The notes under the pieces: model-generated | Told to the model about the DNA's origin: nothing | The model's database searches: none | The model's input: only the letters and a program-made list of their open reading frames with translations | Shown: positions 3,655 through 55,614 of the stretch, in pieces | Layout of the letters: every line of letters begins with the position of its first letter | Numbering within the stretch: position 1 is the stretch's first letter | Made by a program: the position numbers and the translations under genes | DNA from: Leuconostoc palmae | Lineage (GTDB): Bacteria; Bacillota; Bacilli; Lactobacillales; Lactobacillaceae | Assembly: GCF_019656075.1 (NCBI RefSeq) | Contig: NZ_BPKZ01000001.1 | Coordinates: 186,001-250,000, forward strand | Direction of reading: 5' to 3' | Length of the DNA: 64,000 nucleotides

Positions 3655-3775
3655 CCTTAAATTTTTCTTTTGCAAAAGAAATCCCGTGCGCAAAAGACAC
3701 ACGGGAAAAGTATTTAAACTTCCTCGGCAGGATATTAAGGTAAAATACCACCTGAGTCTTAGGCAAAATGATTTA
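3655..3775 (-). ncRNA. Ribosomal protein L10 leader
   Basis: The transcript between the promoter and rplJ contains GACTCAGGTGGTATTTTACC and ATCCTGCCGAGG, which match the conserved elements of the Firmicutes L10 leader to which the L10-L12 complex binds for feedback control. A second hairpin, CCCGTGTGTC...GCGCACGGG, lies closer to the SD. Boundaries are approximate. Confidence 0.85.
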
Positions 3776-3787
3776 ATTTACTTAAAC

Positions 3788-41145: not shown

Positions 41146-41164
41146 GTTGCGCTCCTTTGATTAG

Positions 41165-41236
41165 TTGTTTACAAACATAGCCGTTCCTTGCTATGCAATT
41201 ACAATAAGTTTCCGGGGCTTATCGTGAGGTAAACAA
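41165..41236 (-). ncRNA. Ribosomal protein L13 leader
   Basis: The transcript folds as a three-way junction: UUGUUUAC (41236-41229) with GUAAACAA (41172-41165), enclosing AUAAG/CUUAU and CAUAGC/GCUAUG hairpins. Location directly before rplM matches the L13 leader class of Firmicutes. Fold read by eye. Confidence 0.7.
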
Positions 41237-41247
41237 TACCGTGTATT

Positions 41248-54534: not shown

Positions 54535-54933
54535 TTACCAAACGTAAGCGATTACTTCGCCACCAATTTGCTTTGCTCTAGCTTCTTTGTCAGTAATCAC
54601 ACCAACCGAAGTAGAAATAATAGCAACACCCAAACCATTCAACACCTTTGGTAATGAATCAGCTTTGGCATACTTACGCAAACCTGGCTTTGAAATACGC
54701 TTAATTCCTGTAATCACACGATTACGGTCTTCTCCGTACTTAAGAAATACACGGATAACACCTTGCTTGTTATCTTCAATGTATTCTACGTCGCGAATAA
54801 AACCTTCTGATTTCAAGATTTCGGCGATGCTCTTTTTAATTTTTGATGCTGGAATTTCAACAACTTCGCGATTAGCCATATTGGCATTACGAATACGTGT
54901 TAACAAATCAGCAATTGGATCAGTCATAGACAT
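54535..54933 (-). CDS. rpsH: Ribosomal protein S8
   Basis: 132 residues: [52 protein letters not shown]. Two in-frame ATGs (MSM) follow AAGGAGG; the first is taken. rpsN, expected just upstream, is absent. Confidence 0.97.
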
Positions 54934-54976
54934 CTATCGATATCCTCCTTTTATTTTTGAACGGACATAATGAAAT

Positions 54977-55031
54977 GACACGCTCTTAACTATTATAGAC
55001 TATTTATGTCTATAACAGTTAAAAACGTGTC
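54977..55031 (-). ncRNA. 24-bp RNA hairpin at the expected rpsN position
   Basis: In the sense (minus-strand) transcript 55031-55008 pairs with 55000-54977 over 24 consecutive pairs; 21 are Watson-Crick and three are G-U. The loop is AUAAAUA. On the opposite strand the same three positions would be C-A mismatches, so the structure fits RNA of the operon rather than DNA or antisense RNA. A smaller hairpin (ACTCTT/AAGAGT, 55032-55049) adjoins it, and UAAAAACGU/ACGUUUUUA (55020-55028, 55055-55063) offers an alternative pairing. Confidence 0.8.
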
Positions 55032-55071
55032 ACTCTTTTTATTAAGAGTAACAGACGTTTTTATCTGCTAA

Positions 55072-55614
55072 TTACTTAGCAAATGGCATACCCAAGAGTG
55101 TCATTAATTCACGACCCTCTTCATCGTTCTGAGCAGTTGTAACAACAACAATATCTAACCCACGAACGCGATTAACTTGATCAAAGTCAATTTCTGGGAA
55201 AATCAATTGTTCACGAATACCTAAAGTATAATTACCGCGACCATCAAATGCTTTTGATGATACACCACGGAAATCACGGACACGTGGTAATGAGATATTG
55301 ATCAACTTATCTAAGAATTCATACATACGTTCTCCACGCAATGTAACCTTAGTTCCAATTGACATACCTTCACGCAAACGGAAACCAGCGATTGATTTCT
55401 TTGCTTTTGTGATAACTGGTTGTTGTCCAGCAATCAACTTCAATTCTGCAACCGCTTCATCCAAGTTTTTTGAGTTTGAAACTGCATCACCAACACCCAT
55501 ATTAAGAACAATTTTCTCAATTTTTGGTGCTTGCATTGGTGATGTAAAGTTAAACTTTTCGATCAAAGCAGGTTGAACTTCATTAACATATTTTTCTTTT
55601 AATGCGTTAGCCAT
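55072..55614 (-). CDS. rplE: Ribosomal protein L5
   Basis: 180 residues: [45 protein letters not shown]. Followed by a 138-bp spacer where most bacteria have rpsN. Confidence 0.98.

Follow-up and report, generated by a model that had tools for sequence, protein, structure and literature searches.

A conserved structured RNA between rplE and rpsH in Leuconostoc and related genera that lack rpsN in the spc operon

The rplE-rpsH spacer and the missing rpsN

The window, by which we mean the whole analysed stretch of 64,000 nucleotides from Leuconostoc palmae, holds an spc operon from which rpsN is missing, and this raises the question of what stands between rplE and rpsH in its place. An earlier note on this DNA described the gene as usual here in Firmicutes, and this is true for most of them, as S14 is found in the rplE-rpsH spacer of 75 of 80 named loci. 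It is absent in four (one Leuconostoc and three Weissella), and in one more (L058), outside the 75 counted, the start of an S14 frame is visible in the spacer. The spacer of the window is 138 nt long and has no S14 frame inside. The locus consists of:

55072-55614, minus strand: rplE (uL5), the upstream gene (frame)
54934-55071, minus strand: the whole element, i.e. the rplE-rpsH spacer with hairpins A, B and C (covariance-model matches)
54535-54933, minus strand: rpsH (uS8), the downstream gene (frame)

The absence of any rpsN remnant, also claimed in the note, agrees with a comparison of the 37 spacers that carry the element with ten spc rpsN genes of relatives, where the best blastn match had an E value of 0.026 and was in reverse orientation. 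A search for a C- rpsN elsewhere in the genome was successful, since the sole S14 match (PF00253) in the 28-contig assembly is an 89-aa, cysteine-free protein on contig 8. At 1239-1665 of L001 its gene lies directly behind a 51-aa rpmG-like (L33-like) frame. This is an arrangement of zinc-independent paralogues, here of the sole S14. All 37 element-bearing genomes have one S14 match each, every time away from rplE.

The gene loss is already known. It is the published event F81 of PMC8046335, in which the spc operon of Leuconostocaceae lost rpsN, and the passages of that paper on the event state that, among its genomes, such a loss is seen in Leuconostocaceae only. The same passages do not mention an RNA element occupying the place of rpsN in part of the clade, and this element is the part that concerns us here. 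No internal promoter was found in 54700-55300.

Three hairpins and a predicted alternative fold

Comparison shows that the spacer holds a conserved RNA whose three hairpins, A, B and C in this order, follow one another on the operon strand with almost no linker around B. The inner arms of A and C, called s2 and s3, can also pair with each other, which extends B into a long hairpin. The parts are as follows:

55020-55063, minus strand: hairpin A (s1:s2), immediately after the rplE stop; a U-run follows or closes the stem, and the hairpin is flagged as terminator-like
55055-55063, minus strand: strand s1, outer 5' arm of A; first paired base 4-10 nt past the rplE stop in 33/33 distinct spacers
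55019-55027, minus strand: core of strand s2 (CGUUUUUAA), partner s1 or s3
54986-55022, minus strand: hairpin B, the middle stem, common to both folds
54981-54989, minus strand: core of strand s3 (UUAAGAGCG), partner s2 or s4
54959-54985, minus strand: hairpin C (s3:s4), from per-sequence folds
54959-54963, minus strand: core of strand s4 (CGUUC), partner of s3; hairpin C ends 25-27 nt before the rpsH AUG in 33/33 distinct spacers
54934-54949, minus strand: rpsH Shine-Dalgarno and spacer, identical in 30/30 loci checked
54976-55032, minus strand: predicted long hairpin of the alternative fold (B lengthened by s2:s3), 25 bp, the minimum-energy fold of the window sequence and the feature first noticed in the earlier note

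The 37 spacers reduce to 33 distinct ones, which were used for fold energies, per-sequence folds, spacing and counts of s2, and alignment A2 holds 24 of these 33, with close Leuconostoc rows left out. Taken together, the tip of A, hairpin B and the base of C have 95.4% standard pairs over 24 sequences, with 15 pairs changed on both sides, as compared to 30-47% paired in slid controls. On the tree, 22 double-change events were counted in B (slid controls 4, 1 and 6). The corresponding number is 7 for A and 7 for C, counts that favour structure because unpaired cells were dropped, paired cells alone being counted with no slid control. Furthermore, the native halves of A, B and C pair better than chimeras, and none of 2000 permutations was as good. 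The s1:s4 control gave 466/2000. The permutations ignore relatedness, for which this control and the tree-based count correct in part only. It follows from the compensatory changes, the slid controls and the chimera tests that the three hairpins are well supported, and it is almost certain that the element is a functional structured RNA of some kind.

Hairpins A and C fold in all 33 distinct spacers when each sequence is folded on its own. In the window and in part of Leuconostoc hairpin C is weak (5 + 1 + 3 pairs with mismatches), and in several relatives it reaches 10-12 pairs. A plain MAFFT alignment (A1) of 25 rows shows four outer-arm columns of A paired in 4-12 rows and five columns of C paired in 4-17. 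This poor pairing is put down to shifted bulges and loops, and the per-sequence folds were used instead. The loops and bulges are variable, and the invariant columns of the region are in the stems.

The feature first noticed was a hairpin of 24 consecutive pairs, and 54977-55000 does pair with 55008-55031 in this way; one further T-A pair makes it 25 bp. The three deviations from identity are indeed G-U when read on the operon strand. A folding energy of -51.6 kcal/mol was calculated for the spacer, with a z-score of -10.5 as compared to -5.8 for the opposite strand, and 0 of 200 shuffles was as stable on either strand. The cells of the long helix over 24 sequences comprise 451 Watson-Crick, 94 G-U, 7 A-C and 24 others, so that 94.6% of the cells are paired (slid partners 38-45%), and 10 pairs are changed on both sides. 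The excess of G-U over A-C argues for selection on the operon-strand RNA and is what such selection predicts. Two of the three G-U pairs sit in the GAG of s3, which also pairs with s4, and this double duty may explain them. An adjacent segment that had been thought able to refold the hairpin turned out to be a conserved hairpin arm, 55055-55070 pairing with 55013-55028. Thus, the part of the earlier reading that saw an RNA under selection, with many compensatory changes, stands, and the 24-bp hairpin has become one of two predicted folds of a larger element.

The two folds compete: either A, B and C form, or the long hairpin together with the tip of A. The mutually exclusive pairings, 1:2 and 3:4 against 2:3, are predicted in the 33 distinct sequences. 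With each fold imposed, the long fold is lower in energy in 24 of the 33, with a median gap of 2.5 kcal/mol, and the gap is 4 kcal/mol or less in 26. None of the 33 has a wider gap than the window sequence, where the long fold is the lower one by 10.7 kcal/mol, and this suggests that its element may hardly switch.

What supports the predicted long alternative is that s2 and s3 have stayed complementary to each other and vary less than s1 (mean entropy 0.08, 0.04 and 0.26). Both s2 and s3 have two partners each, and this was counted together with their low variability as support for a switch. Five positions of the exclusive s2:s3 core are paired in 37/37, and the outward extension of this core is broken in some rows. 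Covariation of the spacer in relatives, proposed earlier as a check, is found as compensatory changes in A, B and C, and there is no double change on the tree in the exclusive s2:s3 core. The chimera test for s2:s3 was weak, -17.4 for native halves and -16.3 across genera, with 1/2000 permutations as good.

For the rpsH Shine-Dalgarno an openness of 0.44 is predicted in one fold and 0.35 in the other, and for the stretch before it 0.61 and 0.62. These near-equal values argue against a simple sequestration and against a simple translational switch. The 16 nt before the start codon are identical not only for rpsH (30 loci) but also for rplF (30) and rplR (29), in L124-L153 from five genera, and for this reason the invariant stretch before the rpsH AUG was rejected as a special feature.

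A further pairing is possible in part of genus g2 (L155, L157, L158 and L159), where the spacer begins with GACAAC-like bases and the loop of C is GUUGUU-like. When these two pair, an outer stem is closed around the long fold.

Distribution among relatives

The element was found in 37 genomes of five genera, always between rplE and rpsH. A covariance model matched 44 of 397 family genomes at E ≤0.01, and 37 of these matches were strong (E 3.1e-14 or better): 19 in g1 (Leuconostoc), 13 in g2, 2 in g7, 1 in g8 and 2 in g56. All 19 Leuconostoc genomes examined carry it at this position. Each genome has its strong match at a single place, if one sets aside the opposite strand of that place and, in G228, a weak additional match that is T-box-like. 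In the other seven family genomes all matches were weak, and on inspection, which for G290 covered three of five places, they were IS-like ends and T-box-like or terminator-like hairpins. In a draw from the order, 3 of 295 genomes matched at E 1e-6 or better, and all three were Leuconostoc. A second copy in the window's own genome was not found by blastn.

In a tree of partial RplE and RpsH the element-bearing rows are on one side of a branch with support 100/99, and on these sequences the element-bearing genomes form one clade. The tree has 69 rows, and several element-bearing genomes are in it twice (48 rows for 37 genomes).

Twenty spacers of the family were examined. Ten of them have rpsN, six the element, and four have neither (L030, L031, L035 and L037). 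L030 and L031, from g18, group with Weissella in the tree, and in the three named Weissella species, whose spacers are 43-48 nt long, both are likewise missing. This implies that the loss of rpsN alone does not bring the element.

In L035 (G069, genus g46) the spacer is 120 nt long, has no rpsN, and holds a strong hairpin of its own which the model does not match. Its place in the tree, beside Weissella on a long branch, is unsure.

Possible functions of the element

Two features, the constant distances to the genes on either side and the series of alternative pairings, suggest that the element connects the expression of rpsH with termination on rplE. Tentatively, we propose that it is an intercistronic cis-regulatory RNA which links the translation of rplE to rpsH and the later genes, by reporting whether rplE is translated to its end. 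A ribosome that has arrived at the rplE stop would reach the base of A (s1), and s2 would be freed to pair with s3. This pairing would dissolve the outer arm of A and hairpin C, and s4 would be released beside the initiation site of rpsH. When there are no ribosomes at the rplE stop, A and C would form. As A is shaped like an intrinsic terminator, it is conceivable that an unhindered A stops some of the transcription before rpsH; s3 cannot prevent this termination, since it is transcribed after s2. By either route rpsH and the following genes would be tied to the translation of rplE, and the coupling would replace the tight gene packing that rpsN gives in the relatives. Counted against a coupling switch is that Weissella does without the element. 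That the RNA is a ligand-free device of two states, which reads ribosome termination on one r-protein gene and sets the expression of the next half of spc, is a further reading that seems rather doubtful.

In trp-type attenuators a ribosome controls a chain of mutually exclusive pairings, 1:2, 2:3 and 3:4, behind a translated frame. The predicted pairings of the element have the same topology, but the terminator of the attenuators is 3:4, whereas here 3:4 (hairpin C) is followed by an A-rich stretch with no U-run, and it is 1:2 that resembles a terminator. The simplest active model for the element is that the ribosome finishing rplE would occlude s1. That ribosomes occlude hairpins and terminators is an established route of coupling, as set out in the relevant passages of PMC12548453. 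In the parts of the 2024 review PMC10931766 that deal with these operons, the target of uS7 in the E. coli str operon, between rpsL and rpsG, is like the element a structured RNA between r-protein genes and governs the downstream and coupled genes. That target binds uS7 by rRNA mimicry, and the likeness of the element to it is one of position and structure. Among working systems, this target and the uS8 operator of E. coli spc come closest to the element.

According to the same parts of PMC10931766, it is unknown how spc is regulated in B. subtilis or other species, and going by them the element would, if the two-state reading is true, be the first spc control element in Firmicutes. On that reading it would also be a ribosome-sensing coupling switch inside the operon, one that arose in a clade without rpsN at this place. 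The element is a precise and conserved candidate for control inside spc in one Firmicutes clade. From each helix one can predict a specific mutation and the change that would repair it, so that control inside the operon can be tested directly, and Weissella, with neither rpsN here nor the element, is a natural comparison group. Rfam 15 had no family at gathering score in the spacer, and the matches below threshold were mostly microRNA-like hairpins. In the open-licence literature no earlier description of the element or expression data were found, and a term search in the main text of PMC7247131, with 20 ribosomal leader candidates, gave no mention of rpsH, rplE or Leuconostoc. The Rfam L10 and L13 ribosomal leaders are also within the window, at 3667-3781 and 41162-41240 on the minus strand.

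Instead, the element could be where RNase III or another endonuclease processes the mRNA, a function that the earlier note considered beside that of a stability element. Cleavage of the long fold would then let the upstream and downstream halves of the spc mRNA decay differently, and the three-hairpin fold would protect. RNase III readily takes about 20 or more uninterrupted pairs, the window has 25, and the long helix is well paired over the 24 sequences. However, the stem is interrupted in relatives, where one column pair is unpaired in 11 of the 24, and RNase III alone leaves the conserved arms s1 and s4 unexplained. We consider this explanation unlikely.

A ribosomal protein, for example uS8 or uL5, may bind the element and repress translation in the manner of uS8 in the E. 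coli spc operon. The position directly upstream of rpsH is in favour of this. The uS8 operator belongs to the same operon, and according to the parts of PMC10931766 on spc it is a control point near rplE that acts on the downstream genes via translational coupling, but it is at the start of rplE, unlike the element. From the description of the operator in PMC4176348, it needs an internal loop of seven conserved nucleotides; on inspection of the folds this loop, with its two base triples and bulged A, was not seen in the stems, and a mimic of the uS8 helix 21 was rejected as a candidate. The variable loops and bulges, with the invariant columns in stems, also speak against a protein operator. 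We consider it quite improbable.

About equally improbable, or a shade more so, is that hairpin A and its U-run are a partial intrinsic terminator which lowers the distal spc transcription, B and C merely protecting the new ends. Hairpin A was found by a terminator scan, with 3 G-C pairs, and the scan gave 2 sites in 601 bases where 0.3 were expected. The U-run is kept in 27 of the 33 distinct spacers, those with the s2 core CGUUUUUAA. It is broken in the other six, which have CGUUCUUAA, while the pairing with s1 is kept there by matching changes, and this argues against a simple terminator.

With still less probability, the RNA may be a passive fold whose effect is to bring the rplE stop and the rpsH start closer together along the mRNA. 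When all three hairpins are formed, about 30-37 unpaired nt are outside them, which resembles the 42-52 nt spacers of relatives that have neither rpsN nor the element. The mutual complementarity of s2 and s3 is not explained by such a fold. Finally, the element sits where rpsN was, and yet a scar of the rpsN loss or a functionless mobile repeat, both considered in the earlier note, can be practically dismissed, as there is no remnant of the gene, one copy per genome, one clade with conservation across five genera and compensatory evolution, and no element in Weissella without rpsN.

Outside the element-bearing genomes, L037 (G028, genus g11) has a 70-nt rplE-rpsH spacer without rpsN, and its single S14 is on another contig. 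About 20 nt of this spacer resemble the end of rpsN (best blastn E 0.013), and judged by this similarity it is possibly a true rpsN scar.
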